Source: Chryseobacterium gleum (GTDB lineage: Bacteria > Bacteroidota > Bacteroidia > Flavobacteriales_D > UBA2798). Taken from it: a stretch of DNA of 42,715 nucleotides. Position numbers and translations under genes: made by a program. Below are positions 7,437 to 27,388 of the stretch, piece after piece. The stretch spans positions 1 through 42,715 of the forward strand of contig CAMBFX010000007.1 of the NCBI GenBank assembly GCA_945865695.1, written 5' to 3'. Position 1 is the stretch's first letter. Every line of letters begins with the position of its first letter. Under the pieces are notes generated by a model. It was not told where the DNA came from. It saw only the letters and a list, made by a program, of their open reading frames with translations, and did no database searches.

Positions 7437-10400
7437 TTATCTTAAAATGGTTAATGGTCCAGTGTAAGCGTCAGGGAATAATGGATTATTTAAATTAATC
7501 ACATAGTAGTAAGTTCCAATTGGCACTTCTTTGTCTTCGTATTTTCCATCCCAAGGAATTTGATATCCCACAGAGATAAATAATAATTGTCCCCAACGAT
7601 TATAAACTTCTACTTGACATTCTGGGAAGTATTCAATGAAATCGATTTCCCAAACATCATTTGGTCCATCACCATTAGGAGAAAAACCATTAGGAATGAA
7701 AATAGGAGAAAGAACTTCTACAACGACCGTATCTGTATCAACGCATCCATTGGCGTCGGAAACAGTCACAATAAAAGTAGTTGTGGTATCAATCGCCGCG
7801 GTTGGGTTGGCACTAGTACTATCATTTAAATCTACACCAGGACTCCAAATAAGAGATGTTCCCGCAGTTCCGGTTGGATTTCCTCCAAAAGAAATTGGAA
7901 TTCCGAAAGCGGTAAAAACATCTTCTCCTGCATCCGCATTGGGTGGAGTAAAAATACCAATGATAATGGTATCTCTTCCTATGCATAATCCATTAGCAGC
8001 AACTAAAACTAAAGTGGTTGTGCCAGGAGTTGGATTAAACGTATAGGATGGTGATGTGGATAAAGAATTACCAGCTAAATCAAACCATTCATAAGTAACG
8101 CCACCATTTCCGTTAACGGTGAAAGTATTTAAGTTTCCACAAATAGTTGTATCGTTTCCTGCATCAGCATTTACAATAATTAATGCATTAACAAAAGCTG
8201 AATCTGTAAATGAACATCCATTGGCATCTGTTGTGGTGAGGTAATACATTCCTGTAAAAATATTAGTTAAGTCCTCACTGATTGAAGTAAAATTATTCGG
8301 GCCTGTCCATGAATAAGTGTATCCACCGGCTCCACCTGCTGCAGTTACATCAATTGCCCCATCTGCAACTGTAGAACAAGATGCATCTGTAATTACAAAC
8401 GCCATGGTTACTTCTGTTGGCTCATTGATGGTTCCTGCTTGAGTATCTGCACATCCATTTGCATCTGTTACGATTACATTATAGGTTCCTGCACATAGAG
8501 AATTAATATCTGAAGTAGTTGAAGAAGCTGGATCATCCCATTGATAAGTGAATGGTAAAGTTCCATTTATAACAATTGCTTCTAACTGTCCATCACAAGA
8601 TGCGAAACAAGAATTATCTTGGAGGAATGGTAAACTGAACTGTAATGAATCAGGTTGATCAATGGTGAAATTAGTAGCCGTTAAACATCCTGTTGCTTGA
8701 TCTAAAATTTGTACGATATAATCGCCTTCACATAATGTATTAACGGATGGGCCAGCTAATCCTAAATTAGTTCCATTATCATCCATCCATGTTTCTACAA
8801 ATGGCCCCGTTCCTCCAACTGTAAATACCGTTGCAATTCCATCACAACTTCCGTTACAATTTGCATCTGTAGTGATTGTACTTATTTGCGGAGCATTTTT
8901 TCCATTCACAGAATAGGTGAAGCTATCCGAACATCCGTTTCCATCATTTACAGTTACAGAATAAATTCCTTCACATAAATTTGAAACGGTTTGTGTGGTG
9001 ACGCTTCCAGCAGCAGCATTCCATTGAAAACTGAATGGGCCATTTCCTCCTGAAGCAAATATTTGCAAGCCTCCATTACATACTCCACAATCGGCAGGAG
9101 TAATATTTGTGCTGTCTATAATTTGTGCGGCATCATTAATAGTAATTTCACTTACACGAATACAATCATTGGCATCTGTAATTTCACAGAAATAACTTCC
9201 AGGGCAAAGATTAGAAACAGTATTTGATGTTGATGCATCATGTAACCAGAAAAATGTATAAGGAGCAGTTCCACCAATTGGAGTAACATCAGCTGTTCCA
9301 TCGCATACTCCAAAACAAGAGGCATCCGTTGAAATAATAGTTTCACCAGTTGGTCCAGTTGGATTACTAACGGCAAAATTGATGGTTTGCTCACAACCTA
9401 ATCCATCTGTTACTTGTGCACCATATGCACCCGCGCATAGATTAGTTGAGGATAATCCACTATCTCCGTTTGTCCAAAGTATGGAATAAAATCCGGCTCC
9501 ACCAGTAGGTGTAATAGTTGATGCGCCATCACAAGCTCCGCATGTTGCATCTGTCACAACAAATGTTGCATCTATAACATCGTTTTCATTTAGTGTTGCA
9601 TTTGCGAAGGAAAGACAACCTACAGCATCTGTTACTTGTAAAGTATAGTTTCCTGCACAAACATTTGAAAGATCTTCGGTTGTTTGTCCACCTGCAAACC
9701 ATGAGTAAGTATAACCACCAGTTCCACCAGTAATTTCCATATTAATTGCACCATTGCAATCACCATTACAAACAGGTTGTATAGTAGCAAAAAGTGTTGC
9801 TGTTGGACCATTAAAATTACTTATGGTAGCCGTTAAAATTGTTTCACATCCACTAGCATCTGTAATTTCTACATTGTATAATCCAGCACCTAATCCTGTT
9901 GCTCCTTGTGTTGATTGTCCAATTGGAACTAAAGCTGCATCTAACCACTCAAAGCTGTAATTTGGTGTTCCTCCAGTAGGAATTGCGTTTGCACTTCCAT
10001 TAATAACATTACAAGTTGCATCAAAATCATCTACGGTTCCACTCAATGCAGTAGGTTCATTCATGTTTACGTTCAATGAACTTTGACAATTATTTCCATC
10101 GATTACTACTATATCATAAGATCCACCACATAGATTAGTAAATAAATTTCCTGCTTGAAAATTTGCTCCATTATCAATACTGAATTGATAAGTTCCATCA
10201 CCACCTGCCGCATTTATAGTAATCGTTCCATCACAAAAAGAATTACAGGTAACATCAGTTGAAGACACAGAAATGACAATGTCAGGATTTTCATTGATTG
10301 TTACAGGCGTTGGCACAGTTGTGCAGAAATTAGCATCTGTTACCATCACATTGTAATTTCCAGCACAAAGAGAAGTAGCGATTAAAGAAGTTTGCAGTGC

Positions 10401-13400
10401 AGGATCATCCCACTGAATAGTATATGGAGCATTTCCACCAGCCAGTATTACCGTTGCATCTCCATTACAGTTTCCAAAACAATTTACATCATTAGAAGAA
10501 ACGGAAGCAGTTAATGCAATTGGTTCATTAACGAATACAGCTAAAATTAAATTACATCCATTGGCATCTGTTATAGATGCATTATAATTACCCGCGCAAA
10601 GATTAATAGCTGCCTGAGTACTTTGCGTAGCTCCATCATCCCAAGTAAATGAATAAGGTAAAACACCATCATTAACCGTTAGGGTTGCTGTTGCATTACA
10701 ATCACCATTACATTGTGCATCGGTAGAAACTACAGAAGCTGTTATAGCTATTGGTTGATTGATAAAATAGGTTTCTGTAATTGTACATCCACCAGAAGTG
10801 ATTTGCACATCAACATTTCCACCGCAGAGACTTGCTGCTGATTGCGTAGTTTGTGCTCCTGGATCTGTCCATAAAAATGTGAATACACCGTTTCCACCCG
10901 AAGGAGTTAATACAACACTACCATCACACACGCCACCACATGCAGCATCAGTAACAATTCCATTTCCTTCAATTTCTAATGGTTCATTAATGGTGGTATT
11001 TTCAATAGTAATACACCCGCTTGCATTGGTTACTTCAACGAAATAATCATCAGCGCATAAATTGGATAAATTAGAACTAAAAATTCCTATTGATGTACCT
11101 GTTCCGTCAAACCATTCCAATGTACAAGGACCATCAACACACGCGGTATTTGCAATAGCAGCGCCATCACAAACATCAAAACACGAAGCATCTGTTGGAA
11201 TAATGGTGACTAATTCAGCATTATTATCAGAAATGGAAACACCTACTGTTTCTGTACATCCCGCTGCATCGGTTATATCTACAGCGAAAACGCCAGCACA
11301 TAGATTAGAAATATTTTGTGATGTTCCTCCACCCGCAGCTGCATCCCATTGGTAAGTATATCCAGGAACTCCTCCTGCAGGAGTAACCAATGCAGACCCA
11401 ATACAAGAACCGCAAGTTGAATTTGCAAAAGTGAACGTTGAAGTTATTTCTATTGAAGGATCAATGGTAATTGTTTCACTCGTATTACAGCCATTTGCAT
11501 CGGTAATATCCACATCATAAGTTCCAGCACAAAGATTACTAATTGTATTTGTAGATGATCCATCTGACCATACAACAGTATACGGTAATGTTCCACCAGA
11601 AGGATTTACAGTGGCAGAACCATCGCAAAGTTCAAAACAGGTTTCATCTGTAAATGTTGAATTAGAAGTAATACCAATTGGCGCAGTAAGAATTGCGCTA
11701 CCGGATTGTACGCAACCATTAGCATCTGTTACATCAATATTAAAAGTGCCTGCGCAAAGATTAGAAGCTAAAGAAGTAGTTTGCGAAGAAGGATCATCCC
11801 ATAAAATACTATACGGTGTTGTTCCTCCTACTACGGTTGCATCTGCATTTCCATTACATAATCCACTACAATCTGGATTTGTTCCAATGACTGATACTGT
11901 TAATGCTATTGGTTCGGCAATCGTAATACTAAATGGTGTGGAATTGCAACCGTTGATATCTGTTGCAACTACATGGTATGTTCCATCACAAAGGTTAGTT
12001 GCGATTGCGCTGGTTTGTGTAAGTGGATCATCCCATAAAAATGTAAATGGAGACGAACCACCTGCAATGGCAAGTGTGGTTGTTCCATTGCAATTTCCAA
12101 AACAATCTATTGCAGTGGAAGAAATATTTCCTGTGATAGCTTGTGGTTCATTGATAGTAACTGTTATTGGTCCGAACGTACATCCAGATGCATCTACTAC
12201 AGTTAAATTATACGTTCCTGCGCATAATCCTGAAGCTATTTGTGTTGTTTGTGCAGCTAGGTCATCCCATTGGTAAGTATAAGGTGCTAATCCTCCAGTT
12301 GGGAAAGCAGTAGCCGTTCCATCACAAAAAGCGTTACAGCTTGCATCTGAAAAAGCAGTGGTCACATCTAAAATAAAGGGATCATTTACAATAACGCTTC
12401 CAACACCAGTACATCCATTTCCATCTGTTACAGTTACAGAATATATTCCAGCACATAAATTTACTGCTGCAGGATTAGTTTGTGAAGCTGGATCATTCCA
12501 TAACCAAGTATAACTTCCATTGCCACCAGTTGGAACAGACGAACCTGTTCCATTGCAATTTCCATTACAAATTACATCTGTTGCTGTTGCGTTAACTTGA
12601 ATATCTTGTGGTTCATTTACATCAATTACTGCAGCAGAAATACATCCTGCTCCATTGGTAACGGTTACACCATAAGATCCAGCACAAAGACCTGTAGCCG
12701 TATTTATTGTTTGCGCTCCTGAATCATTCCAAACTAATGCACATGCTGGTGTTCCACAATTAAAATTTACGGTGGTCGTTCCATCGCAAACACCTTCACA
12801 ACTTGAATCTGTAGCAGAAATATTTAATGTTTCACCATTAGGATTACTTACTGCGGCTGAAAAAGTTTGTGTACAACCATTGTCATCAGTAATTGTTGCT
12901 TGATAAACACCTCCACATAAGGCGTTAGCTGTTGCTGTTATTTGACTTGCTGCTGCAACATCCCATAAAATATCTAGTGTACCTGTTCCACCAGATGGCG
13001 TAACGGTTGCTGTTCCATCGCATATACCACATTGTGCGTTTGTGCCAGAAGTAACTGCAGTAATATCTATCGCAGAAATAATTGTTCCGGACGCGGAAGC
13101 AGTACATCCATTTGCATCTGTTACATCAATTGTATAAGTTCCTCCGCAAAGTGAAGTGGCAATGTCTGTAGTTTGAATATTTGGATCATCCCATTGCGAA
13201 GTGGTGATTCCCGTACCACCAACAATGACTGCTGTAGCAGTTCCATCACAAACTCCAAAACAAGATTCATCGGTTGCAGTTACAGCAACAGTTAAAGTAG
13301 TTGGTTCGTTCACTATACTATTTTGTGGAGCTAATGAACATCCGTTTGCATCAGTAACAGTTACATTATAAGATCCTGCGCACAATGAGATTGCCGTTTG

Positions 13401-16400
13401 AGTAGTTTGTGCTAAAGGGTCATTCCATAAAAATGAATATGCACCTGTTCCACCAATGGCGGTAACTGTTGCTGTTCCATCACAAACACCACCACAAGTC
13501 GCATCGGTAGAAGTAATCGTATTTAATGAAATTGCAATCGGCTCAGTAACATCTGCAGAGAAAGGTAAGGAGTTACAGCCATTAGCATCTGTAATAATTA
13601 CATCATAAGTTCCTGCGCAGAGATTGGATGCTACTGGAGCAGTTTGTGCAGCCCCGTCATTCCATAGGTATGTATAGGGAAAAGTTCCACCAGCACCTAC
13701 AATTGAAACGGAACCGTTACAATCTCCAAAACATAAAACTGTTCCATCAGTTGTGTTTGCTGAAATTTGTAATGGTTCAGCAATACTGAAAGGCAATGGT
13801 GGCAGAGTACAACCAGCTGCATCTGTAATTCCTACAGTATAATTACCATCACATAAATTTATTTCTGTGTCTGTTGTATTTGCAGATGATGACCAAACAA
13901 AGCTATACGGAGCAGCCCCGCCTACAATGGAATAAAAGGCGGTTCCGTTACAAACACCAAAACAAGTTGCATCGGTAGTGACTAAGTTTCCGATTAATTG
14001 AGCAGGTTCTGCAATAGTAACTGTATTTGATGTAAATGAACAACCATTTGCATCCGTCACTATTAATTCATAATCTCCTTCGCAAAGTGATGATGCATTT
14101 TGACTAATTTGACCTGTAGCAATGCCCGTAGATGCATTGAACCATTGAAACGAATAAGGTGCAGTTCCTCCAACGATCACTGAGGTTATTGATCCATCAC
14201 AAACACCAAAGCAAGAAGCGTTCGTACCGGTTAAAGTAATTGTTACTTCAGTTGGATCATTTAAATTTTCAATTAAAGGAGCTGAAGAACATCCGATAGC
14301 TTCAGTGATTACAACAAAATAATCTCCTTCACAAAGTCCTGTTGCATCTTCAGTGGATTGCCCAATTGGTAAACCAGTTGATTGATCAAACCAAGCAAAA
14401 GTGTAAGGAAGATTCCCTCCATTTGGAGTAAGGTTAATAGAGCCATCACAAGTGCCAAAACAAGAAGGGTCGGTTGGGACTAGTGTTCCAGTAACAACTA
14501 TTACTTGATTTAAAACTGACGTATCGCTAATAGCTGAACAACCGCTTGCGTCAGTAACAACTGCATAATAATTTCCTGCACAAAGGTTTATTGCTGGATC
14601 TGAATTTTGTCCTATTGAAGTTCCAGAAGTAGCATCAAACCATGTGATAGTTAATGGTGCTGTTCCGTTGATAATTGTTAAATCTACAGATCCATCACAA
14701 ACAGCTCCGCAAGATGCAGCAGTTGGAATAGTAGTTGCTATCATTCCTGGAGGATCAGTTAATGCATATTGAAAAATTTCAAAACATCCGTTAGCATCTG
14801 TAACGGTTACTTCATAATCTCCGGCGCATAAATTTTGAATCGTATTTGTAATGGTTCCTAACGGTAAACCTGTAACTAAATCAACCCAAACAAATGAGTA
14901 TGGAGGTGTTGCTCCAGTTGGATTTGCAGAAGCAGTTCCATCGCAGGCGTTTAAACAAGTAGGATCTGCAAAATTTGGAGCTAAAACTAATTGAGTCGGA
15001 TTAGTAATGTTGAATTGATGGGTAGTGTCGCAACCATTTTGGTCGGTGATGGTAAGCGTGTAATTTTGAACGCATAAATTATTTTCTGTAGTAGTGGTAT
15101 TTGCACTAGAGGACCATGAAAGGTTATAAATTCCCCCTTGACCAGTAATGTTTGAAACAGTTGCAGAACCATCACATACTCCAAAACAAGTGGGGTCCGT
15201 TACTGCTAAATCAAAAGTAAAAGCAGTATTTTCATTAATTGTAAATGGAGCAATATTAAATATACAACCATTCGCATCAGTAATATCAACTGTATAATTC
15301 CCAGCACATAAATTTAATTCCGTATCAGTTGTATTTGCAGAGGAGGACCAGGAATAAGTGAAAGGTGCAGTGCCACCAATAATAGTAACAATAGCTGTTC
15401 CATCACACGAGTTATTACAAGATACCTCCGTTGTAGCTACCGTTCCACTAAGAGCAATTGGTTCTAGTACAATTACATTCGGTGAAGCTATAGTACAGCC
15501 ATTCGCATCTGTAATGTCAGCATGATAGGTTCCTGCACATAAATTTGTTGCTGGATCAGTGCTTTGACCAATAGGATTTCCTAATAAATCTTCCCAAACA
15601 ATACTATATGGGAGTGTTCCTCCACCAAGGGTAAGGTTAGCTGTGCCATCACATACTCCAAAACATGACATATCAGTATGAGTAATGGTAGCTGTTAAAG
15701 CATTCGGTTGATTAATTGTTAAATCGCTTGATTGTAAAGTACAGTTATTGGCATCCGTAGCAATGGCATAATAATCTCCTGGACAAAGAGCAGTTGCAGT
15801 ATTACCAGTTTGACCAATAGGATTATTCGTTGTAGCATTAAACCATGCTATGTTGTAAGGGGAAGTTCCTCCTGTAACATCAAATGTGGTTGTACCATTA
15901 CAAGCATTGAAACAATTTACATTAGTTGAGGTTTCAAGCAATGTTGTTAATGCTGTTGGTTCAATAATCGAAAACTGAATCGTATCGATACATCCGTTTT
16001 GATCAGTTACTCGGCAAAAATAATTCCCATCACATAAACTAGCGATAGAAATCCCTACCCCAATTGAAGTATTGGGCATTTGAAACCATTGAAAGGTATA
16101 TCCACCTGTTCCTCCAATGGCAGAGGCAGACGCTGATCCGGTACATGCTGTATTACAAAGTACATCGACTGTATTCACTGTAAGAATTAATTCTGCAGGT
16201 TCAGTAATGGAAACAACACTTGAATTTTCAATACAACCATTATCATCCGTTACTTCTACAAAATAGTTTCCTGCACATACTCCATTTTCATTGGCTGAAG
16301 TTAAACCAGCCATTGGTATGCCTGTAGCAGCATTAAACCATTGGTAGTCATGCGTGCCTGTTCCACCAATAGAAACGGCACTTAAAGTACCAGTACAAGC

Positions 16401-18206
16401 AGCAAAACAAAGAATATTGGTGGAAGTTGGAGTGATAGTAATGGCAGGAGGTTGAGTAAGGATAATATTTGCCGATACATCTTGACATCCATTTGCATCT
16501 GTTACCTGAACGAAAAATGTGCCAGCACACATATTCGATGCATCTTCTGATGTTTGTCCAACTACAGGTAAACCGGTGGTAACATCAAACCATTGATAAG
16601 TATATGGCGGTGTACCATTAGCAGTTGAAATATTTATTGCGCCTGAACAAACACCATTACAAATCAAATTTGTTTTACTCACAAAAGTTAAAATAATTTT
16701 TAAGGGCTCTGTGATCGTTATTGATTGATTACCGATGCAGCCATTATTATCAGTAACGATGACGGAATAAGTTCCATCACAAAGATTGACAGTAGAATCT
16801 ACTAATGGTCCTGGACCAACATCGCCATTGCTCCAAACAAAAGTATAAGGAGCTCCATTGCCTCCAGTAGGTGTAGAAGTAATTGTTCCATCACATACTC
16901 CGAAACAGGATGCATCGGTTTTTGATAAATTTGGGACAACTGGAGTAGGAGTTAGAATAAAAAAAGTGGTGTCAAAAACACATCCATTAAAATCTGTAAT
17001 GGCTAAATCATTTTGACCAACACAAAGTAATGTTGCAACTCCAGTTGACTCACCTGTAGACCAAGCAAAGGTATACGGAGAAACACCACCAATAATAAAA
17101 GGAGCAGCTGTTCCATCGCAAACACCATTACAAGAAGGGTCAGTGCTCGTCCAAGAAAAAAGCGTAATTAATTCAGGTTCGGTAACACCAATGTTGGTAT
17201 TGCAAGGAACATGGGTAGGAGCACTTCCTTGACCTAAATCAGTTACAACAACTGAATAAGTTCCTGCGTCTCTACCTGACCAACACTCAGCACCACTTCC
17301 AAACAAACCACTTGGACCGCCTACCCATACTACGTTAAATGGACCAACACCACCTACAATACTTACACAAACAGTAGCATCACTAGCACCATTACAGGTT
17401 ACATTTTCACCATTATAATTTGTAGTTACAGAAGTAGTGATGGTAAATGGTGTTTGTCCTGGTCCAGTACCACAATTTTTTACAGTTTTTGGAGCCCCAA
17501 CGTCATTGGTTAAATAAAATTGCCGGTCAAGAAGAACCGTTTTATTATTTAAGATTAAATGTTGTTGTAGGGCGTTTGAATATTCAACTGATAAATTGGT
17601 TTCAATTATAGAATTGGAGAAATCCACTAAACACAAAGTATTTTCTTCAATGGTAATTTTATTCGCAGAAATTATTTTACCAGAAGTTGTAAAATTACCA
17701 GAGATGAATTGCAAGGATTTATCTTGTAAATTTAAATCTGTCAATAATGAATAATTACCCGTGTTATTAAAAATCACATCAGCATTGAAAAAACTTTTGG
17801 TAGAAATTGTGTGGGAAGAATTACCTGTGAAAGTAAAGGTTCCAGCAATTAAGTTTCTGAAATTGGATTGTACATTCCAGTTACCTTTAATTTCAAAATC
17901 GATACGATTGTATGATTTTAATTTGAAGTATTGAGAATTTATAACATTAAAATTACGAATTGATTGATTTACTGAAACGGTAATTAGATTATGTCCATTT
18001 GTAGATTGGAAAGAATTCGAATCAAAATAAACATCATCATTGGAAGAAGGAATTCCTGCACCACCATTTCCACCAGAAGAAAATGACCAATGAGAACTTT
18101 CATTCCAATTACCATTACCTCCGACCCAATAGAAATTATTTGCTTGAAGTGAAACAAGCGTCAAACTGAATAAAACGGAAAGGAAAAGTTGTAAATGTTT
18201 TAGCAT
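7437..18206 (-). CDS. Giant SprB-repeat adhesin (3589 aa) with gliding-motility-associated C-terminal (CHU_C, T9SS type B) sorting domain
   Basis: Signal-like N-terminus MLKHLQLFLSVLFSLTLVSLQA; 'FYWVGGNGNWNESSHWS' start; about 39 SprB-type repeats 'SCFGVCDGTATV..GGTAPYSF.W....LCAGTY.V.VTDANGC'; C-terminus 'IFIPNGFSPNGDGPNDVWEIDFIEYFPECQVEVYNRWGQLLF..WDGKYEDKEVPIGTYYYVINLN..YTGPLTILR'. Confidence 0.95.
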   Translation of the reverse strand: MLKHLQLFLSVLFSLTLVSLQANNFYWVGGNGNWNESSHWSFSSGGNGGAGIPSSNDDVYFDSNSFQSTNGHNLITVSVNQSIRNFNVINSQYFKLKSYNRIDFEIKGNWNVQSNFRNLIAGTFTFTGNSSHTISTKSFFNADVIFNNTGNYSLLTDLNLQDKSLQFISGNFTTSGKIISANKITIEENTLCLVDFSNSIIETNLSVEYSNALQQHLILNNKTVLLDRQFYLTNDVGAPKTVKNCGTGPGQTPFTITTSVTTNYNGENVTCNGASDATVCVSIVGGVGPFNVVWVGGPSGLFGSGAECWSGRDAGTYSVVVTDLGQGSAPTHVPCNTNIGVTEPELITLFSWTSTDPSCNGVCDGTAAPFIIGGVSPYTFAWSTGESTGVATLLCVGQNDLAITDFNGCVFDTTFFILTPTPVVPNLSKTDASCFGVCDGTITSTPTGGNGAPYTFVWSNGDVGPGPLVDSTVNLCDGTYSVIVTDNNGCIGNQSITITEPLKIILTFVSKTNLICNGVCSGAINISTANGTPPYTYQWFDVTTGLPVVGQTSEDASNMCAGTFFVQVTDANGCQDVSANIILTQPPAITITPTSTNILCFAACTGTLSAVSIGGTGTHDYQWFNAATGIPMAGLTSANENGVCAGNYFVEVTDDNGCIENSSVVSITEPAELILTVNTVDVLCNTACTGSASASAIGGTGGYTFQWFQMPNTSIGVGISIASLCDGNYFCRVTDQNGCIDTIQFSIIEPTALTTLLETSTNVNCFNACNGTTTFDVTGGTSPYNIAWFNATTNNPIGQTGNTATALCPGDYYAIATDANNCTLQSSDLTINQPNALTATITHTDMSCFGVCDGTANLTLGGGTLPYSIVWEDLLGNPIGQSTDPATNLCAGTYHADITDANGCTIASPNVIVLEPIALSGTVATTEVSCNNSCDGTAIVTIIGGTAPFTYSWSSSANTTDTELNLCAGNYTVDITDANGCIFNIAPFTINENTAFTFDLAVTDPTCFGVCDGSATVSNITGQGGIYNLSWSSSANTTTTENNLCVQNYTLTITDQNGCDTTHQFNITNPTQLVLAPNFADPTCLNACDGTASANPTGATPPYSFVWVDLVTGLPLGTITNTIQNLCAGDYEVTVTDANGCFEIFQYALTDPPGMIATTIPTAASCGAVCDGSVDLTIINGTAPLTITWFDATSGTSIGQNSDPAINLCAGNYYAVVTDASGCSAISDTSVLNQVIVVTGTLVPTDPSCFGTCDGSINLTPNGGNLPYTFAWFDQSTGLPIGQSTEDATGLCEGDYFVVITEAIGCSSAPLIENLNDPTEVTITLTGTNASCFGVCDGSITSVIVGGTAPYSFQWFNASTGIATGQISQNASSLCEGDYELIVTDANGCSFTSNTVTIAEPAQLIGNLVTTDATCFGVCNGTAFYSIVGGAAPYSFVWSSSANTTDTEINLCDGNYTVGITDAAGCTLPPLPFSIAEPLQISANTTDGTVLCFGDCNGSVSIVGAGGTFPYTYLWNDGAAQTAPVASNLCAGTYDVIITDANGCNSLPFSADVTEPIAISLNTITSTDATCGGVCDGTATVTAIGGTGAYSFLWNDPLAQTTQTAISLCAGSYNVTVTDANGCSLAPQNSIVNEPTTLTVAVTATDESCFGVCDGTATAVIVGGTGITTSQWDDPNIQTTDIATSLCGGTYTIDVTDANGCTASASGTIISAIDITAVTSGTNAQCGICDGTATVTPSGGTGTLDILWDVAAASQITATANALCGGVYQATITDDNGCTQTFSAAVSNPNGETLNISATDSSCEGVCDGTTTVNFNCGTPACALVWNDSGAQTINTATGLCAGSYGVTVTNGAGCISAAVIDVNEPQDIQVNATATDVICNGNCNGTGSSVPTGGNGSYTWLWNDPASQTNPAAVNLCAGIYSVTVTDGNGCTGVGSVIVNDPFILDVTTAFSDASCNAFCDGTATAFPTGGLAPYTYQWDDLAAQTTQIASGLCAGTYNLTVVDASGCTFGPITVTINEPQAITGNISSTAIDCFGNCNGTTTLAIAGGSSPFTFLWDDPLTQTSAIATNLCDGTYHVVATDINGCNSTPFSITIAEPIALTVSVIGTNPDCSGLCNGNADATVVGGTTPYSILWDDPSSQTTSLASNLCAGTFNIDVTDANGCVQSGSAILTAPIGITSNSTFTDETCFELCDGSATVNPSGGTLPYTVVWSDGSSTNTISNLCAGTYDVDITDANGCNTSETITIDPSIEITSTFTFANSTCGSCIGSALVTPAGGVPGYTYQWDAAAGGGTSQNISNLCAGVFAVDITDAAGCTETVGVSISDNNAELVTIIPTDASCFDVCDGAAIANTACVDGPCTLEWFDGTGTSIGIFSSNLSNLCADDYFVEVTNASGCITIENTTINEPLEIEGNGIVTDAACGGVCDGSVVLTPSGGNGVFTFLWTDPGAQTTQSAASLCGGNVDVQITSGGCTITETYFINQPIAITASVVSTDAQCNGDCNATATLTVNDGVLPYSFTWDDGATQSTQAAINLCAGNYNASITDANGCNLILAVFVNEPIALTASVSSNDVNCFGNCNGDATVILAGGNAPYTIQWDDPALQTSLIATSLCAGNYNVMVTDANFCTTVPTPVTINENPDIVISVSSTDVTCNSFCDGTITINAAGGDGTYQFSIDNGANFQAGNLFTNLCGGSYDIVVIDGNNCQSSLNVNMNEPTALSGTVDDFDATCNVINGSANAIPTGGTPNYSFEWLDAALVPIGQSTQGATGLGAGLYNVEITDASGCETILTATISNFNGPTATLFATIQPVCNGDCNGAINMEITGGTGGYTYSWFAGGQTTEDLSNVCAGNYTLQVTDAVGCLSFANATLNENDVIDATFVVTDATCGACDGASTITPTGGAGFYSILWTNGDSGLSSTNLCAGAYGAQVTDGLGCEQTINFAVSNPTGPTGETIISTDASCFGVCDGTADVTPIGGTAPYTFFWLHDASTSNTVSNLCPGSYFCEITDANDCIRVSEITINDAAQIIDSTNITPADCGVCNGGLQIFASGGNGPFSFQWNAAAGSVTTQTVSNLCEGIYSVTVNDGNGCSDSFTYSVNGKNAPQISTITTDANCNGSCDGIATVFTVGGTGPFVETWMDDNGTNLGLAGPSVNTLCEGDYIVQILDQATGCLTATNFTIDQPDSLQFSLPFLQDNSCFASCDGQLEAIVINGTLPFTYQWDDPASSTTSDINSLCAGTYNVIVTDANGCADTQAGTINEPTEVTMAFVITDASCSTVADGAIDVTAAGGAGGYTYSWTGPNNFTSISEDLTNIFTGMYYLTTTDANGCSFTDSAFVNALIIVNADAGNDTTICGNLNTFTVNGNGGVTYEWFDLAGNSLSTSPSYTFNPTPGTTTLVLVAANGLCIGRDTIIIGIFTPPNADAGEDVFTAFGIPISFGGNPTGTAGTSLIWSPGVDLNDSTSANPTAAIDTTTTFIVTVSDANGCVDTDTVVVEVLSPIFIPNGFSPNGDGPNDVWEIDFIEYFPECQVEVYNRWGQLLFISVGYQIPWDGKYEDKEVPIGTYYYVINLNNPLFPDAYTGPLTILR
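8190..17430 (-). repeat. Coding tandem array of about 39 SprB-type repeats (average ~79 aa / ~237 bp)
   Basis: Counted by eye from recurring 'C..xCDG' starts and 'LCAGxYxVxVTDANGC' ends in the 3589-aa translation. Confidence 0.9.
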
Positions 18207-18378: not shown

Positions 18379-19314
18379 TCAAAAAACTGGACATGCCGCG
18401 GGATCATAACTTTGTTTAGGGCATGCGCTGATTCCCAGTATGATTTCATGAGTATTAGAACTGGCGAGACGAATTTTGGAGGTAGTGAAATCATACGCAT
18501 AACCAAAAGAAAAATATTTTAAGAAATTTACCTTGCACATCAATGCAATGGCATCAGTATTTCTCCAAGTAGCTCCAAATTGAATATTTGTAGTATAATC
18601 AAAAAGCAGATTAACATCAATAGCAAGGGGTGCCCACGGAGCAAATTTTAATACGACAGATGGGGTAAGTGCTAAATCAGAACTTCGCGATGCCCATTTT
18701 TTTCCAGCCATCAAAACATAGTGATGAGCAAACTTAGTATCTGGAAAAATTTTAATTTTATTTTTTAATAATTGTGGCATAGTAAAACTGATGTATGAAC
18801 TTCGATTTTCAGTATAATACAATAATCCAGGAGAAACATCAGGTACAATAAAAACAGCTTGTGAGCCAGAAATGGCATTATCAGGAGTTACTGCTAAAGT
18901 TACTTTGCTAGCATTAAATCGATATTGATCAAATCCTGCAAAAATTCCAAATGCAAATCTATTTCTTCTTCCCGCTTTAAAATTGATGGCATACGCCAAT
19001 GAAACATGTGTTTTACTCACTGGGCCAATTCCGTCAGAATAAACATTAATTCCAGTCGCATGAAAACGATAAATACTTCCCCCTCTTTTACCTTTTGGAA
19101 TACGAGCATGTAAGTTAGCAAAAGTAGTTTTAGGAGCTCCATCAAAACCCACCCATTGAGTTCGATAACCTAAACGCATATCTACACAATCATTGGTTCC
19201 GGCTACCGCTGGATTTATACCAAAATGATTAAATAAAAATTGTGAATATTGAGGAATTTGCTGAGCAAAACTCATCACAGGAATAAAAAATAATATAAAA
19301 AATATTTTTTTCAT
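18379..19314 (-). CDS. PorP/SprF family type IX secretion system outer membrane protein
   Basis: 'QIPQYSQFLFNHFGINPAVAGTNDCVDMRLGYRTQWVGFDGAPKTTFANLHARI..' and 'FSFGYAYDFTTSKIRLASSNTHEIILGI'. ATG at 19314 overlaps the TGA of the upstream gene (TGATG). Confidence 0.93.
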   Translation of the reverse strand: MKKIFFILFFIPVMSFAQQIPQYSQFLFNHFGINPAVAGTNDCVDMRLGYRTQWVGFDGAPKTTFANLHARIPKGKRGGSIYRFHATGINVYSDGIGPVSKTHVSLAYAINFKAGRRNRFAFGIFAGFDQYRFNASKVTLAVTPDNAISGSQAVFIVPDVSPGLLYYTENRSSYISFTMPQLLKNKIKIFPDTKFAHHYVLMAGKKWASRSSDLALTPSVVLKFAPWAPLAIDVNLLFDYTTNIQFGATWRNTDAIALMCKVNFLKYFSFGYAYDFTTSKIRLASSNTHEIILGISACPKQSYDPAACPVF

Positions 19315-21593
19315 CAATATACAATTGTTACGGATCCGTGATAAATATCAGCATCAGATCCAGAATTTAAATCAATTACAAAAAAATAGGTGGAGGCTGG
19401 TAATTTTAACCCACCATTGGTTCCATCCCAAGGATTGGCATTAGAATAGCCTGTGGTTTTGTAAATTTTTTGTCCCCAACGATCATAAATATTTACTTCA
19501 CAATTGGGATAATTTTCTATTCTTGAAATTTGCCATGTATCATTTGTTCCGTCACCATTTGGTGTAATGGTATTTGGAGCAACAACTAATTGAGCAACAA
19601 CAATAGTTACTTCGTCTGTGGCAGTACAACCATTGGCAGTAACAGTTAGTAAATAGGTGGTCGTTGAATTAGGAGATGAAATAGGGTCAGAAATAGTTGG
19701 ATTGCTTAATGTAGAAGTGGGCGTCCAAGAAAAAGTTCCACCTGAAGTTCCCGAACCATTTAAAACGGTTGATTCACCGGGAGCAATCATTTGGTCATTT
19801 CCTGCATCCGCAATAATTTCAGCAACAGCAATATTTACAGAATTGGATGTTGATGGTAAAGCACAAGCATCATCACAATTGGCAATAACTGAAATTTGCG
19901 CATCATTTGGTAATGAAAAAGTATTCGAATTTGATGTTGTTGTGGCAATCGTTATTCCGTCAACTACCCAATCAAATGTTCCATTGGCTGTGCAATTTGT
20001 AGTTGCAGTTACCGTTACTTGTTCTCCTTGACAAATATCAGTTTCAGATGAAATAATTGTTGTGGTGGGAGTAAAAGGTAATAGAATAGTTAAATTAGTT
20101 TGTGCTGATTCATCTGTATTTATTGCAACACAAGCATCATTACTAATCACTAAGCAAGTGATGATATCTCCAGAAGACAAGCTTCCAGACGTAAAAATGG
20201 CATTTCCACTATTTTGAACAGATGCACCATTAACAAAAAATTCATAGTTGGTAGAAGCTCCGCCATTGGTAACAGTAGAAGTAAAAGTAATCGCATCACC
20301 CGTACAGGCTGGATTTGGTGATTGGGACATAGTAACTACAGGTGTTAGGTTGGGTGGATTTTCAGTCACAATTGTTTGGGAAATTAAATAAGTACAACCA
20401 CCAGCATCGGTAACAAGTATTTCATAAGTACCCGCAGCTAAATTGGAAAATACAGCTGAGCTTTGAGAAACACCACCATTCAAAGAATATTGAAAAGGGG
20501 CTGTTCCGTTCCCTACAATTACGGTAATTTCTCCTGTATTTTCTCCGCAATCCGAAGGAACAATTGTTGTGGTTACATTTGAAATTCCCGAAGCATTGGT
20601 AATTTCTGCAATCACAGTATCAGAACAAGTTAATTGATCAGAAATAATGATAGTGTAATTACCTGCAGGCAAATTAGAAAATGAATTCGAAGCTTGAGTT
20701 CCACCACCAACTAATAAATAGGAATAAGCAGGATTTCCTCCTGTTGTATTTACAATTTGTATTGTTCCATCATTTCCATTGCAAGTTGCGGGTGTAATAT
20801 TTGCAGTTGAATTTTCTGGTCCATTATTTTGATTCACCAAATCTTCAGTAAAAAACAAACATCCATTTGCATCTTTCACTACTAGCGAATGTATTCCAGC
20901 CGATAATGAAGTGAAATTGGTAGCGGCTTGAAAATTTCCTCCATCCAATGAAAAAGTATAAGAAGATTGTCCGCCATCCACAGAATTCACAATAAAAGTT
21001 CCATCATTTGCACCGCATTCTGAAGGCGTTGTTGAAGTTAAAATTGTTGGATCTACAGCTGCACCACTTACTTCAATATTGAAATCACATTCGGCAGAAT
21101 TAGTAATTCCTGTACCTGATAAATCTCCATTAATTTGAATATAATAAGTGGTATTTGGAAGTAATCCTGTGGCGTTTAATGTAAAATCTGTAGAAGTACC
21201 AACTTCACAATTAGAAACTGAAGTATAAGTTGATTCATCACAAGGGGTTCCCGCTTGAATAACTACAGCTTGTAAATCGGTGTCATATCCAGTTCCAATA
21301 AAACAAGAAATGTTTGAAATTATTACATCAGCACTTCCTCCAACAGAGTTGGTGAGAAAAGAAAACCAAATGGTGCGGTTAATGTCATAACAAAAATTTC
21401 CGGTAGCATTGGGGCCATCTGCACATCCTGGACAAATTTCCGTTCCAGCAGCAAAAGTAGTTCCGCTGAAAGTGGTATTGGGGCAAATATTTTGAGCATT
21501 CGAACAATCGTCATTGGTAGTTTGCGCTACTGATGATAAAATGGAAAAAAAACTCAAAAAAAGAAGACTAAGAAAATTTAAAAATCTCTTCAT
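19314..21593 (-). CDS. Secreted adhesin-like protein with SprB-like/Ig-like repeats and CHU_C (T9SS type B) C-terminal domain
   Basis: ORF 19314..21626; start at ATG 21593 (MKRFLNFLSLLFLSFFSILSSVAQ). Three 2-Cys SprB-like repeats; C-terminus 'LVVAPNTITPNGDGTNDTWQISRIENYPNCEVNIYDRWGQKIYKTTGYSNANPWDGT..LPASTYFFVIDLNSGSDADIYHGSVTIVY'. Confidence 0.9.
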   Translation of the reverse strand: MKRFLNFLSLLFLSFFSILSSVAQTTNDDCSNAQNICPNTTFSGTTFAAGTEICPGCADGPNATGNFCYDINRTIWFSFLTNSVGGSADVIISNISCFIGTGYDTDLQAVVIQAGTPCDESTYTSVSNCEVGTSTDFTLNATGLLPNTTYYIQINGDLSGTGITNSAECDFNIEVSGAAVDPTILTSTTPSECGANDGTFIVNSVDGGQSSYTFSLDGGNFQAATNFTSLSAGIHSLVVKDANGCLFFTEDLVNQNNGPENSTANITPATCNGNDGTIQIVNTTGGNPAYSYLLVGGGTQASNSFSNLPAGNYTIIISDQLTCSDTVIAEITNASGISNVTTTIVPSDCGENTGEITVIVGNGTAPFQYSLNGGVSQSSAVFSNLAAGTYEILVTDAGGCTYLISQTIVTENPPNLTPVVTMSQSPNPACTGDAITFTSTVTNGGASTNYEFFVNGASVQNSGNAIFTSGSLSSGDIITCLVISNDACVAINTDESAQTNLTILLPFTPTTTIISSETDICQGEQVTVTATTNCTANGTFDWVVDGITIATTTSNSNTFSLPNDAQISVIANCDDACALPSTSNSVNIAVAEIIADAGNDQMIAPGESTVLNGSGTSGGTFSWTPTSTLSNPTISDPISSPNSTTTYLLTVTANGCTATDEVTIVVAQLVVAPNTITPNGDGTNDTWQISRIENYPNCEVNIYDRWGQKIYKTTGYSNANPWDGTNGGLKLPASTYFFVIDLNSGSDADIYHGSVTIVY

Positions 21594-21778
21594 ACCTATC
21601 CACGTCAAGGGCTTAAAGTTAGCCAAATATTTCAGAATAAACTCATTCGAGTGATGAAATGATGTTTTTTTTATTTGGATAAAAGATTAGCGATGACCAT
21701 CTTAATTACTTATTTTTGAACGCTAAATAAATTTGGTACAATTCATGCTTTGCGTGATATAATAACAATTACATTTTT

Positions 21779-24700
21779 ATGAAAAAGATTTACATTTTAT
21801 TTCTGGCTTCATTTTGCCAGCTTATTTTGACAGACTCTAAAGCACAATTCATCAAATACGAAGATGATTCTGGATGGAAAATGGGTTTCAATTTATCGGG
21901 TAATTGGCAACAATCCGATATGAAAGCAAAAGCTGGACTTGGCTTTGGTTTCACCTTAGGAAATGCCCTATCACAAAAACCAGGCAAATTTTTTGCTTGG
22001 GATTGGGCCTACCGATATCAAGCTGGTTGGAATTATGGTTATGATGTAAATCGGGATACCAATTTTGTTACGGGCCCATTTGGTGGGAATAATACTACTT
22101 CACCCGAACTTAATTTTTACAAAGATAGTCTAGGTTTTATCCATAGAAATTACCGCGTCAATGTTCAAGAGCATAATCTTGAATTGATTTTAACTTTAAA
22201 TAAATTAAGAGAGAGAACGGGAATTGTATTGTATGCATGGGGTGGTTTAGGATTTGTAGGATATAAAGTAAATACCAATCAAATAGATGAATTTGGTTTC
22301 AGTGGCGGTACTTATAACTATTCTAATTTGGATTCAGGTGCAGTAACTCAAGCAGATTTGAATTTTTTATGGGATAACACCTATGAAACAAATGCACTAA
22401 ACAATGAAAATACGAGAGAATGGAAAATTTTACCATCAGCAGGTATTGGATTAGGTTATCAATTCTCACCTTATTTTACCATGGGTTGGGAACATAAAGT
22501 GACTTTTGCTATGAATGATTATATTGATGGAAAAATTTCATCTGTAGAAAATCATTCGGGAGGAACGCCTACTAACGATAGATTCCACTATACTGGAATT
22601 TATTTTCGATTCCATTTGATGCGAGCTACAGGTTATGTAAACAACAATAACAATAACTATAACTATAATTATAATACCAACACAAACACTAATACAAATA
22701 CAACAACAAACATCACGAATACTACACCTGTAGAAAAACCGAGACCAATTGTTGATTTTACTAATCCAACGCCTTCATATGTTACTGTAAATAATCAAGT
22801 ATATAATGTAATGGCTAATGTTTATAATGTAGATAATTCTTCTAACATTACTTTTAAACATAATGGAATAGAAAGTACATCATTTGCCTATAGCACCATT
22901 TCAAAAGAATTTCAAAGCCAAGTTATTTTGCAGCCGGGAAATAATATTTTTGAAATCAGAGCAGTAAATTCAGAAGGATATGACTATGAATCAAGAATTG
23001 TAATTTACGAAATTCCATTCGTTTCTACAGCTATACCTCCAGTGGTAACGATTACTAATCCTCCCTATTCACCTTATAACTCATCATCCAATACTTTTAA
23101 TGTAACAGCGACTATTTTAAATATTGATAATTATTCTGCTATTACTCATAAGGTGAATGGCGTTTTAAATAATGGATTTACTTATAACGTAACCACCAAA
23201 AGTTTCTCTAATTTAATTACACTTAATCAAGGAAACAACACCATTGAAATTAAAGCAACCAATGCTGCAGGTCAAGATGTAAAGTATGCAACAATTGTTT
23301 ATCAGCCAGTGCAAGTTCAATTGCCTCCGGTGGTAACTATTACCAATCCGGCTTTAAACCCGTATACCGTTTCTGTAAATAGCACAACCGTTGAAGCAAG
23401 TGTTTTAAATGTTGCTTCTGCTAATGATATAACATTGAGAATTAATGGAGCTTTAACCAGTGCTTTTACTTATAATGCTAGCACCAAACAAATGGTTATT
23501 GTTTCTAATTTAGTTGAAGGTGCCAATATTTTTGAAATCACAGGGACAAATGCAGTTGGAGCGGATTCAAAAAACACTACTATCATCTATGTAAAACCTC
23601 AAACTGAATTGCCTCCTGTGGTTACTTATGTTGATCCAACAAATAATCCACATTCAATAACTGTGAATTCTAAATTAGTAAAAGCAACAGTTTTAAATGT
23701 GGCTGCGGCATCAAATATTACAATAACGTTGAATGGAAATCCGGTAACTAATTTCAACTTTAATTCAGCAACAAAATTGATTAGTTTTACTGCCTCAAAT
23801 TTAGCATTTGGTTCTAATGTGGTTAATATTACTGGAACAAATAATGTAGGAACCGATACAGAGGCCACTACCATTATTTATGAAAAGCCAAATGTAAATC
23901 CACTGCCCATAGTTACCATTACAAATCCAGCGCAAAATCCATATAATTCAAGTGTGGCTAATGTAACCATCGTTGCTTCTATTTTACATGTCAATGGAGC
24001 ATCAGATGTTACATTTAAATTGAACGGGACTTTAAATTCAAACTTCAGTTATGATCCCACAACGGATATTTTTACAAGTAATATCACTTTATTAGACGGA
24101 AATAACACTATTGAAATTAAAGGAATCAATACGGTAGGGTCAGATACAGAAACAGCAACACTAATTTATACTAAGCCTTGTGATATTCCAACATTTAGTT
24201 TATTACAGCCATCGTCATCAACTTATAATACCTCTATAAATACACAAATTATTTTAGTAGTTGCCAATCATGTGAATAATCAATCACAAATTGATTTGAA
24301 GGTAAACGGAGTTGTTTCTTCTTTTAGTTTTGATCCAGCAACACATGTAATTACTGCAACGGCCAATTTGGTAGATGGAGATAATAATGTAACCATCACC
24401 GCAAATACTTCTTGTGGAACTGCAGTTTTACCAATGAATATTAGGTACACAAGACCTGTTCAACCACCAGTTGTAACCATTACCGATCCTTCTACTAATC
24501 CATATACAACTACAAACGCAACACATAATGTATTTGCAACGATTCAATATGTTAGCTCGGCATCCAATATAACTTTTAGAATTAACGGAGTAGCTTCATC
24601 TAATTTTACTTTTAACTCTTCTTCTACGCAATTTCAATCTAATGTTAGTTTAATTGCAGGTGCAAACGTGATTGAAATTACCGGAACAAACAATGATGGA

Positions 24701-27388
24701 GTAGATAGTAAAACAACCACTATAATTTATCAAGCGCCAACTGCAGTATGTTTAAATCCAGTAATTGCTTTATCTACGCCATCAGGAAACAATACCGTTT
24801 CTACCATTGGAAATGTGGGCGTAATTGCATTAATTCAAAATATTTCAGCAAATTCAAATATTGTTTTCAAACAAAACGGCACTGTAAAAACTACGACTTA
24901 TGATTTAGCTACTGGATTGATGAATGCAGGAATTACCTTAAGTGACGGGAATAATAATTTTGAAATTATTGCGACTAATGATTGTGGTGTGACAAATTAT
25001 AATTTTAGTATAACTTATAATCGTCCGTTAGTTCCACCAGTGGTAACTATTACTATTCCATCTCAAAACCCGTACACTTCATTAACGGCAAATACAATAA
25101 TTAACGCAACTGTATTACATGTGAACTCTTCTTCAAATATTACATTCACTATTAATGGAACACCATCAACTGGATTTACTTATAATTCAAATACCAGTCA
25201 ATTTGTTTCTAATTCCATTACTTTAAATACTGGTAATAATACATTTGTTATTACGGGCACTAATAATGATGGAACTGATAGCGAATCAACTGTAATTATT
25301 TATCAACCTTGTTTGGCGCCTGATGTGACTATATTAGAAAATGCACTTAATACCAATACAAATAATAATGCAACATCTCCATTCAGTTTCTCTGCGACTA
25401 CAACCAATGTTACTATTTCAAATGAACTTTCTTTAACACAGAATGGCGTACAAATTCCATTTATATTTTCTAATGGAAATGTTACTGCAACCATTAATTT
25501 AGTGAATGGTTCGAATGTGATTGTTTTGACTGCAACGAATGCATGTGGTACAGATTCTGAAACTAAAACTGTTCCCTACCAAGGTTGTTTAGCGCCATTG
25601 ATTGTTTTTGGCCATCCAGGCACTACAGGAACGATTGAAACAACAGCTCCTTATTTATTTGAGGCAGCACTTACTAATATGCCAAATAATGGAACGATTA
25701 TTTTAAAGCATAATGGAAATACAGTTTCAGGTAGCAATTTTTTAAATGGTACTTTGTCTGCTAGCATAACATTAGTTCCAGGTTTAAATACCTTTTTATT
25801 AAAAGTGATTAATCCTTGTGGAACTGCTACAGAAACCACAAGTGTTACTTTACAACAATGTAATGTGCCCAATGTAACCATTAGTTCTCCATCGAACGGT
25901 TCAACAGTTACAACTAATTCAGTTAATGTTAGCGCTTCAATCACCAATGTTGCTGATGTTTCCGATATCCAAGCAACTGTAAACAATACAACGGTTGTTG
26001 GCAGCTTTTCAAATGGTAATTATTCATTTACCGCTAATCTAGTTGATGGAGCAAACGTAATTTCAATTTCTGCGCAAACAGATTGTGGAAGTGACGCTCA
26101 AACGGTAACTGTTAATGCAAATTTAGTTGTTACTCCTCCAGTAGATCCAATGATTACTATTTGTCATACACCTCCAGGAAATCCGAATAACAAACAAACA
26201 TTGACGATTCCACAATCAGCATGGGCGGCTCACGAGGCACATGGCGATGTACTAGGAGAATGTGTTGAGGTAGTTCCTCCAGTAGATCCAATGATTACTA
26301 TTTGTCACACACCTCCAGGAAATCCGAATAACAAACAAACGTTAACGATACCACAATCAGCATGGGCAGCTCACGAGGCACATGGCGATGTATTAGGAGA
26401 ATGTCTTGAGGTAGTTCCACCAGTAGATCCAATGATTACTATTTGTCACACACCTCCAGGAAATCCAAATAACACACAAACGTTAACGATACCACAATCA
26501 GCATGGGCGGCTCACGAGGCACATGGCGATGTTTTAGGAGAATGTGTTGAGGTTCCACCGACAGATCCTGAAATTACGATTTGCCATCACCAAGGAAATT
26601 CTGGCAATACACAAACGATGACCATCCTTCAATCACAATGGGCTTCACATCAGGCACACGGTGATGAGTTGGGAGAATGCGCTCCAGTGATTGAAGAAAA
26701 GAAAATTAAGATTTGCCATATTCCTCCAGGGAACGAAGGTAATCCGCAGACAATTGAAATTCCTGAATCGGCTTGGGCAGCACACGAAGCGCATGGCGAT
26801 GTATTAGGAGAATGTGTTGATTCTGGAAACGGAAACGGAAATGGAAACGGAAATGGAAAGAGTGGAGATTCTTCTGAAGAAGATGCTAAGAAAAAGGCAG
26901 CTGAAGTTGAAGCTAAACGTAAGGCGGAAGCAAAACTAAAAGCAGAGGAAGATGCAAAGAAAAAGGCAGCCGAAGAAGAATCTAGACGTAAGGCAAAAGA
27001 AGAAGCAGATAAAAAGGCGGGAGATGCTAAATTAAAAGCTGATGAAACTAAGCGTAAAGCAGCTGAAGAGGAAGCCAAACGTAAAGCGCAAGAAGATGCT
27101 AATAAAAGAGCAGCTGAAGTAGAAGCAAAACGAAAAGCCGATGAAGAAGCAAGTAAAAAGGCTAAAGAAGAGGCTGATCGTAATGAAGCAGAAAACGAAT
27201 CAAAGCGCAAAGCAGAAAACGAAGCTAAGTTAAAAATTGAGAGAGAGAACAAACTTAAATCTGAGGAAGAAAAGAAGAAAAAGGAAGAGGAAAGTAAAAA
27301 AGCGGAGGAAAATACGAAGACCGAAGAAAATAAAAAGGAAGAAGAGGATAAAAAAACGGGTCCAAAAGTCGGAATAAAACCTCGATAA
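21779..27388 (+). CDS. 1869-aa mosaic surface/envelope protein: N-terminal barrel-like domain, Asn/Thr/Tyr linker, 12 Ig-like repeats, five CH/HGD repeats, GN linker, Lys/Glu/Ala coiled coil
   Basis: Signal peptide MKKIYILFLASFCQLILTDSKAQ; barrel-like 'SAGIGLGYQFSPYFTMGWEHKVTFAMNDY..HYTGIYFRFHLMRATG'; repeats 'PPVVTITNP..NPY..N.TFRINGV..NFTYN..GNNTIEITGTN..G.D..TTIIYQ'; five 'ITICHTPPGNPNNKQTLTIPQSAWAAHEAHGDVLGEC'; TolA-like KKKAAEVEAKRKAEAK tail. Confidence 0.9.
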   Translation: MKKIYILFLASFCQLILTDSKAQFIKYEDDSGWKMGFNLSGNWQQSDMKAKAGLGFGFTLGNALSQKPGKFFAWDWAYRYQAGWNYGYDVNRDTNFVTGPFGGNNTTSPELNFYKDSLGFIHRNYRVNVQEHNLELILTLNKLRERTGIVLYAWGGLGFVGYKVNTNQIDEFGFSGGTYNYSNLDSGAVTQADLNFLWDNTYETNALNNENTREWKILPSAGIGLGYQFSPYFTMGWEHKVTFAMNDYIDGKISSVENHSGGTPTNDRFHYTGIYFRFHLMRATGYVNNNNNNYNYNYNTNTNTNTNTTTNITNTTPVEKPRPIVDFTNPTPSYVTVNNQVYNVMANVYNVDNSSNITFKHNGIESTSFAYSTISKEFQSQVILQPGNNIFEIRAVNSEGYDYESRIVIYEIPFVSTAIPPVVTITNPPYSPYNSSSNTFNVTATILNIDNYSAITHKVNGVLNNGFTYNVTTKSFSNLITLNQGNNTIEIKATNAAGQDVKYATIVYQPVQVQLPPVVTITNPALNPYTVSVNSTTVEASVLNVASANDITLRINGALTSAFTYNASTKQMVIVSNLVEGANIFEITGTNAVGADSKNTTIIYVKPQTELPPVVTYVDPTNNPHSITVNSKLVKATVLNVAAASNITITLNGNPVTNFNFNSATKLISFTASNLAFGSNVVNITGTNNVGTDTEATTIIYEKPNVNPLPIVTITNPAQNPYNSSVANVTIVASILHVNGASDVTFKLNGTLNSNFSYDPTTDIFTSNITLLDGNNTIEIKGINTVGSDTETATLIYTKPCDIPTFSLLQPSSSTYNTSINTQIILVVANHVNNQSQIDLKVNGVVSSFSFDPATHVITATANLVDGDNNVTITANTSCGTAVLPMNIRYTRPVQPPVVTITDPSTNPYTTTNATHNVFATIQYVSSASNITFRINGVASSNFTFNSSSTQFQSNVSLIAGANVIEITGTNNDGVDSKTTTIIYQAPTAVCLNPVIALSTPSGNNTVSTIGNVGVIALIQNISANSNIVFKQNGTVKTTTYDLATGLMNAGITLSDGNNNFEIIATNDCGVTNYNFSITYNRPLVPPVVTITIPSQNPYTSLTANTIINATVLHVNSSSNITFTINGTPSTGFTYNSNTSQFVSNSITLNTGNNTFVITGTNNDGTDSESTVIIYQPCLAPDVTILENALNTNTNNNATSPFSFSATTTNVTISNELSLTQNGVQIPFIFSNGNVTATINLVNGSNVIVLTATNACGTDSETKTVPYQGCLAPLIVFGHPGTTGTIETTAPYLFEAALTNMPNNGTIILKHNGNTVSGSNFLNGTLSASITLVPGLNTFLLKVINPCGTATETTSVTLQQCNVPNVTISSPSNGSTVTTNSVNVSASITNVADVSDIQATVNNTTVVGSFSNGNYSFTANLVDGANVISISAQTDCGSDAQTVTVNANLVVTPPVDPMITICHTPPGNPNNKQTLTIPQSAWAAHEAHGDVLGECVEVVPPVDPMITICHTPPGNPNNKQTLTIPQSAWAAHEAHGDVLGECLEVVPPVDPMITICHTPPGNPNNTQTLTIPQSAWAAHEAHGDVLGECVEVPPTDPEITICHHQGNSGNTQTMTILQSQWASHQAHGDELGECAPVIEEKKIKICHIPPGNEGNPQTIEIPESAWAAHEAHGDVLGECVDSGNGNGNGNGNGKSGDSSEEDAKKKAAEVEAKRKAEAKLKAEEDAKKKAAEEESRRKAKEEADKKAGDAKLKADETKRKAAEEEAKRKAQEDANKRAAEVEAKRKADEEASKKAKEEADRNEAENESKRKAENEAKLKIERENKLKSEEEKKKKEEESKKAEENTKTEENKKEEEDKKTGPKVGIKPR
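22639..22728 (+). repeat. Low-complexity Asn/Tyr/Thr linker (AAC/AAT/TAT/ACA codons)
   Basis: Encodes NNNNNYNYNYNTNTNTNTNTTTNITNTTP; near-microsatellite DNA. Confidence 0.85.
22736..26130 (+). repeat. Twelve tandem Ig-like repeats (~75-95 aa each) within the 1869-aa protein
   Basis: Recurring starts: PRPIVDFTNP, PPVVTITNP (x2), PPVVTYVDP, LPIVTITNP, IPTFSLLQP, PPVVTITDP, NPVIALSTP, PPVVTITIP, APDVTILEN, APLIVFGHP, VPNVTISSP. Confidence 0.88.
26135..26821 (+). repeat. Five tandem CH...HxxHGDxLGEC repeats; the first three are near-identical 141-bp units
   Basis: Units start at 26135, 26276, 26417 and 26555 (spacings 141, 141, 138 bp), plus a more divergent fifth unit from about 26694. Confidence 0.93.
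26825..26860 (+). repeat. (GGAAAY)n hexanucleotide repeat encoding GNGNGNGNGNGK
   Basis: ggaaacggaaacggaaatggaaacggaaatggaaag read directly. Confidence 0.9.

Follow-up and report, generated by a model that had tools for sequence, protein, structure and literature searches.

The forward-strand open reading frame at positions 21779-27388 of the window, by which the whole analysed stretch of 42,715 nucleotides is meant, encodes a giant protein that, judged from its sequence, is a real single-copy member of a widely conserved and uncatalogued giant-protein family of Flavobacteriales and related bacteria. The best overall explanation, held with moderate confidence, is that the members of this uncatalogued single-copy family are periplasmic tethers of modular length that are anchored by a barrel of the OmpA/PorG type. 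The architecture, the family, the strand number and the partial synteny are read from sequences or from a model; from there we infer the periplasmic location, and the target and the tethering function are put forward as a hypothesis.

The reading frame begins with an ATG and runs as a single uninterrupted frame of 1869 codons for amino acids with no internal stop. Its product is composed, in this order, of a signal peptide, a barrel, an N/Y/T linker, 12 Ig-like domains, five HGD repeats, a GN linker and a KEA coiled coil, which are distributed along the forward strand as follows.

21779..21847, forward strand: Sec signal peptide, residues 1-23, ending in DSKAQ (sequence; helix 2-19 in the AF2 model; Q23 invariant in the family)
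21866..22621, forward strand: predicted 8-stranded OmpA/PorG-like outer-membrane beta-barrel, residues 30-281 (AF2, Foldseek, NF052316 below cut-off)
22631..22738, forward strand: disordered N/Y/T-rich linker, residues 285-320 (pLDDT below 50 at 285-316)
22739..26143, forward strand: 12 Ig-like domains, residues 321-1455 (HMM count of 12, Pfam Big_7/Glucodextran_B, Cys positions)
26153..26818, forward strand: five Cys/His HGD mini-domains, at 26153-26266, 26294-26407, 26435-26548, 26573-26680 and 26705-26818 (alignment, AF2)
26819..26869, forward strand: GN-rich flexible linker, residues about 1681-1697 (sequence)
26870..27349, forward strand: Lys/Glu/Ala-rich predicted coiled coil, residues about 1698-1857 (sequence, composition)
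27356..27385, forward strand: basic C-terminus TGPKVGIKPR (net charge of the last 10 residues in relatives)

Sequence, AF2 and HMM results confirm the modules that the preliminary description had listed from the barrel to the GN linker, and its KEA coiled coil also holds, with about 160 residues instead of ~165; this coil is the least conserved portion of the giant. A C-terminal domain (CTD) of T9SS type A or B, which had likewise been reported missing, was matched neither in the giant, with Pfam and NCBIfam, nor in any of 92 relatives. Both databases were also found to lack this architecture as a catalogued entry, and nothing matching the combination of barrel, Ig domains and further modules was found in the literature.

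Related loci were gathered with a 10-row alignment (A3). The gene was present in all three genomes of the taxonomic family of the source organism and, within the order, in 101 of 199 genomes at E <= 1e-3, about 96 of these matches being strong and the other five reaching only 1e-5 to 1e-4. In the matching genomes the barrel gene is practically always found in single copy, with open reading frames mostly of 1000-3000 aa, and the named contigs that carry it belong to Flavobacteriales, that is to Crocinitomicaceae, Fluviicola, Brumimicrobium and many MAGs. At the level of the class, about 35 of 295 genomes gave full-length matches in open reading frames of 650-2600 aa, some of them from families that do not belong to the order, and a phylum-wide draw of 297 genomes gave matches at 1e-25 in class members only. 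The record of one carrier, L115 (CP034120.1), is named Glaciecola amylolytica THG-3.7; it holds this Bacteroidota gene and groups in the order of the window, so that its name looks wrong.

The barrel comes first and the Ig domains after in 92 of 92 distinct complete members, with 1-24 Ig domains (median 11.5). The mixture of domains, previously described as an unusual mosaic, is thus real and is not a one-off, since the order recurs in an uncatalogued family. The same observation makes it extremely improbable that the gene is an assembly artefact or a chance fusion of unrelated frames: the source genome is a draft in 264 contigs, but the relatives were assembled independently and include single-contig genomes. 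What follows the Ig array is variable and can be HGD repeats (0-15 copies per giant, with 5 in the window protein, 7 in L203, 15 in L206 and 1-6 in several others), a 'GPRFNPGN' domain, TPR, KEA coils, TonB-like P/K-rich or G/T-rich segments, or nothing. The tails of members, usually of low complexity, are in the same way T/P/G-rich, TonB-like P/K-rich or made of TPR (a TPR motif at E 6e-5 in L055), and in some members the tail is missing and the protein stops with an Ig domain. This combination of a constant anchor, interchangeable middle modules and a basic terminus would be expected of a strap or spacer.

The AF2 model, computed from a 38-row alignment of relatives, predicts strands at 30-45, 53-63, 72-93, 121-140, 149-166, 214-230, 233-243 and 268-281, with pLDDT mostly 85-97. 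The N-terminal region, which had been suspected to form a barrel, was therefore returned as a closed 8-stranded one; residues 285-316 of the linker are disordered in the model and are followed by two Ig-like domains mostly at pLDDT 93-98. Foldseek gave the transmembrane domain of OmpA (9fzc) as the best PDB match (target-normalised TM score 0.71, E 7.9e-8), with Ail also among the matches and most of the other top ones falling on the Ig domains. When the window protein was taken alone, Pfam returned nothing significant for its barrel and HGD region, and among 39 relatives examined 17 match its generic OMP_b-brl family. The NCBIfam PorG model NF052316 is matched by 31 of 39 members, and by the window barrel at 29.2 bits (6.9e-7), the curated cut-off of 130 bits not being reached. 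Since this score lies far below the cut-off and a true PorG, which bears two tail Cys, is encoded by a separate gene of the source genome, the barrel, to judge from sequence and model, is a remote relative of the PorG/OmpA type that is distinct from PorG itself. A replacement of PorG by the giant was considered and rejected, as PorG is present in the same genome and scores above the cut-off in 160 of the 199 genomes of the order.

The giant shares with the OmpA family its closest solved fold, the OmpA-type 8-stranded barrel. It has, however, an Ig/HGD array and a basic tail in place of the peptidoglycan-binding domain PF00691, which Pfam did not find in the giant and which is present only in distant relatives. 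In three of these (L208, L212 and L213; profile E 4e-32 to 8e-28) the barrel is followed by TSP3-like spacers and then by PF00691. One further locus, L216 (G243:C27), contains five tandem genes (408-664 aa), each encoding a distant PorG-like barrel with TSP3, SPOR or EF-hand-like tails.

In the family alignment the presumed periplasmic turns are fixed at 8, 8 and 2 residues (SD 0-0.16), whereas the loops presumed to face outward are long or differ in length (SD 2.4-5.4). Together with the even number of strands, this indicates that the chain exits the barrel on the periplasmic side. The TPR, TolA-like and TonB-like tails found among the members are also of periplasmic type. Strand parity alone is no proof, because the barrel of intimin also ends in the periplasm and its passenger is then threaded through a wide pore. 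The argument for the periplasm consequently relies on the narrow 8-stranded barrel, an OmpA-like barrel of this size being too narrow for the threading of a chain, and on the relatives fused to OmpA domains. The barrel followed by Ig repeats had suggested a parallel with intimin and invasin (type Ve), with which the giant does share this order. The parallel fails on other points: the barrel has 8 strands rather than about 12 and is OmpA-like, lectin tip and LysM are both missing, the tail is basic or a coiled coil, and relatives carry an OmpA domain. No periplasmic N-terminal LysM is present, as the barrel begins at residue 30 and Pfam gave no match; some true type Ve members also lack LysM, and its absence alone is a weak argument.

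A competing explanation, regarded as rather unlikely, is that the protein is a surface adhesin or filament whose barrel-anchored Ig/HGD chain lies outside the cell, after threading as in intimin or by an unknown route. The 12 Ig repeats of this chain are of 90-99 aa (an HMM built from them recovers 12), match Big_7 and Glucodextran_B in Pfam and, in repeats 6, 8, 10, 11 and 12, hold one Cys pair each about 75-78 residues apart. With 7.9% of charged residues and 46.5% of N/T/S/G/Q, this low-charge, N/T-rich array is composed like the adjacent secreted type B adhesins (9.7% charged, 44-47% N/T/S/G/Q) and not like two periplasmic proteins, a small control set, which are 26-33% charged. We estimate that in extended form the 12 domains would span roughly 45-50 nm and exceed the width of the periplasm. 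This composition and this length favour the surface, as do the HGD modules in T9SS-secreted proteins and the sprB/sprF genes next to the locus. Composition, length and the HGD modules, together with the members that are tail-less and end in an Ig domain, equally weigh against the tether. On the other hand, a location at the surface is opposed by the narrow OmpA-like barrel, by the lack of LysM or other intimin features in Pfam, by the missing T9SS CTD in 92 members and by barrel relatives that end in OmpA domains. Since the OmpA-type relatives show that spacers of extracellular type can be periplasmic, the chain is considered likely to lie in the periplasm.

The five HGD repeats (residues 1459-1680) are of 38 residues each and, in the alignment, 69-97% identical to the first. 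AF2 folds one module into two strands and one helix (pLDDT 94). For the repeats, no match was obtained in Pfam, among PDB sequences or in the text of the literature, and a fold search of the PDB did not improve on E 4. In the source genome the giant holds the only copies. Outside giants most copies of the module belong to proteins that bear a type A secretion tail. In the sampled genomes tandem arrays are found in giants, and T9SS-secreted proteins and lipoproteins have the module singly (L226-L241). The Cys, the His and the HGD motif are invariant in the HGD alignment (A5), an invariance partly imposed by the search pattern that collected the copies. As far as alignment and model can tell, the mini-domain is an uncatalogued small fold, possibly a disulfide or metal module.

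The tail (residues 1681-1869) consists for 59% of K/R/D/E, and its coiled coil has colicin E1 as best PDB sequence match (E 9e-4, over 1683-1840). A net charge of at least +2 was observed in the last 10 residues of 70 of 92 relatives, compared with 6.8% of internal 10-mers. A covalent C-terminal lysine like that of Braun lipoprotein was rejected as a general feature, since K is the last residue in only 20 of 91 relatives. The likeness to TolA noted in the preliminary description is valid for the periplasmic-spacer style and does not extend to a family trait, the tails of other members being different or absent. Like TolA and TonB spacers, the giants have K/E/A helical or P/K-rich extended tail segments, but the inner-membrane helix and the TolA/TonB C-terminal domain are lacking in the giant, for which Pfam gave no match to TolA domain III. 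In L044, L072, L045 and L057, a recurring Cys-containing 'GPRFNPGN...GNGNNRP.SPCE' domain is found near the tail, where it seems to be swapped with HGD repeats.

Upstream of the giant gene and divergent from it lies a pair of genes for a type B CTD protein and a PorP/SprF protein.

19314..21626, reverse strand: divergent neighbour, 770-aa SprB-repeat protein with a T9SS type B signal (Pfam CHU_C 1.8e-25, TIGR04131)
18379..19317, reverse strand: divergent neighbour, PorP/SprF protein with two Cys in its C-tail, ..GISACPKQSYDPAACPVF (PF11751 3.1e-66; tail sequence)

This setting beside an SprB/SprF cluster, already pointed out in the preliminary description, recurs in part: a divergent PorP/SprF was found at 23 and CHU_C at 24 of 40 order loci, while the pair was absent from 17 of these 40 loci and from all 15 class-level loci tested. 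The association is thus lineage-limited, and the loci without the pair count against the tether. With about 20 such genes in 3.3 Mb, the chance of a porP/sprF gene at a giant locus is estimated at one to two per cent. At least two Cys within the last 28 residues are present in 38 of 48 distinct SprF sequences from these loci; in the source genome, two or more tail Cys occur in 3 of 17 inspected SprFs, among them the neighbour of the giant.

In F. johnsoniae, PorG is an 8-stranded barrel with a periplasmic C-tail, and both PorG and SprF form Cys bonds to GldK, the moving track (PMC12635249). With PorG (NF052316/DUF6089) the giant shares the 8-stranded barrel, the ends of which would both be periplasmic. 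It may accordingly be asked whether the giant is a specialised PorG paralogue and a part of the T9SS/gliding machinery, its arm contacting the PorK/N (GldK/N) ring or track and pushing or positioning a dedicated PorP-type B carrier, a reading that is possible and considered doubtful. The remote PorG homology, the conserved divergent pair of type B and twin-Cys SprF genes and the bonding of GldK by both PorG and SprF (PMC12635249) agree with it. The separately encoded true PorG, with its two tail Cys, does not, and the giant departs from PorG by its 29 versus 130 bits, by its 1500+ residues of modules and by the lack of a short Cys-bearing periplasmic C-tail for bonding GldK. Its sequence is devoid of Cys between residues 13 and 801, and its 20 mature Cys are paired within modules.

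The tether reading finds an analogue in P. gingivalis, where PorE, a lipoprotein that combines TPR, beta-propeller and OmpA domains, fastens the PorP-PG1035 pair (PorP and a type B protein) to the cell wall (PMC9143113). In both cases a PorP-like and a type B CTD protein are encoded with a candidate periplasmic anchor; the giant differs in being barrel-anchored with Ig modules, and the likeness is one of gene neighbourhood. This analogy suggests that the giant may brace the PorP-type B complex. The 8-stranded OmpA/PorG-type barrel would anchor the N-terminus in the outer membrane. The C-terminal part would string together interchangeable spacers (Ig, HGD, TPR, coiled coil, P/T/K/G-rich) up to a usually basic end and would most likely lie in the periplasm, where PorG has its short tail and OmpA its peptidoglycan-binding domain. 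Such a strap of adjustable length might run from the outer membrane to a candidate target in the periplasm, either peptidoglycan or the apparatus of GldK/N, and in many species it could serve the adjacent PorP-type B adhesin complex as PorE serves PorP-PG1035.

An unannotated single-copy giant whose anchor can be recognised and which is conserved across much of Crocinitomicaceae and other Bacteroidia is probably a core part of the envelope. More tentatively, the family may be a class, so far undescribed, of giant periplasmic straps resembling titin, which would mechanically couple a surface adhesin held by PorP/SprF to the cell wall or to the gliding/T9SS track. Between the constant anchor in the outer membrane and the basic terminus, Ig, HGD and further modules would be free to replace one another. 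With a periplasmic array the giant would rank with the longest proteins of the periplasm and could account for the bracing of PorP-held adhesins against cell wall or track, a question raised by the recent work on PorG/SprF-GldK disulfides. An array lying outside would imply that an 8-stranded barrel serves a route of display at the outer membrane, which would be equally unexpected.

The about 20 PorP/SprF matches in the 3.3 Mb source genome include those at 6506-7432 and 18379-19317 of the window. On the reverse strand, 7437-18206 encodes a protein of 3589 aa that carries a T9SS type B signal, and an SprF gene of its own lies next to it. Finally, an OmpA-type coiled-coil lipoprotein was observed beside the PorP/type B pair in seven loci, for example at 13323-14288 of L049 and 2383-3399 of L056.
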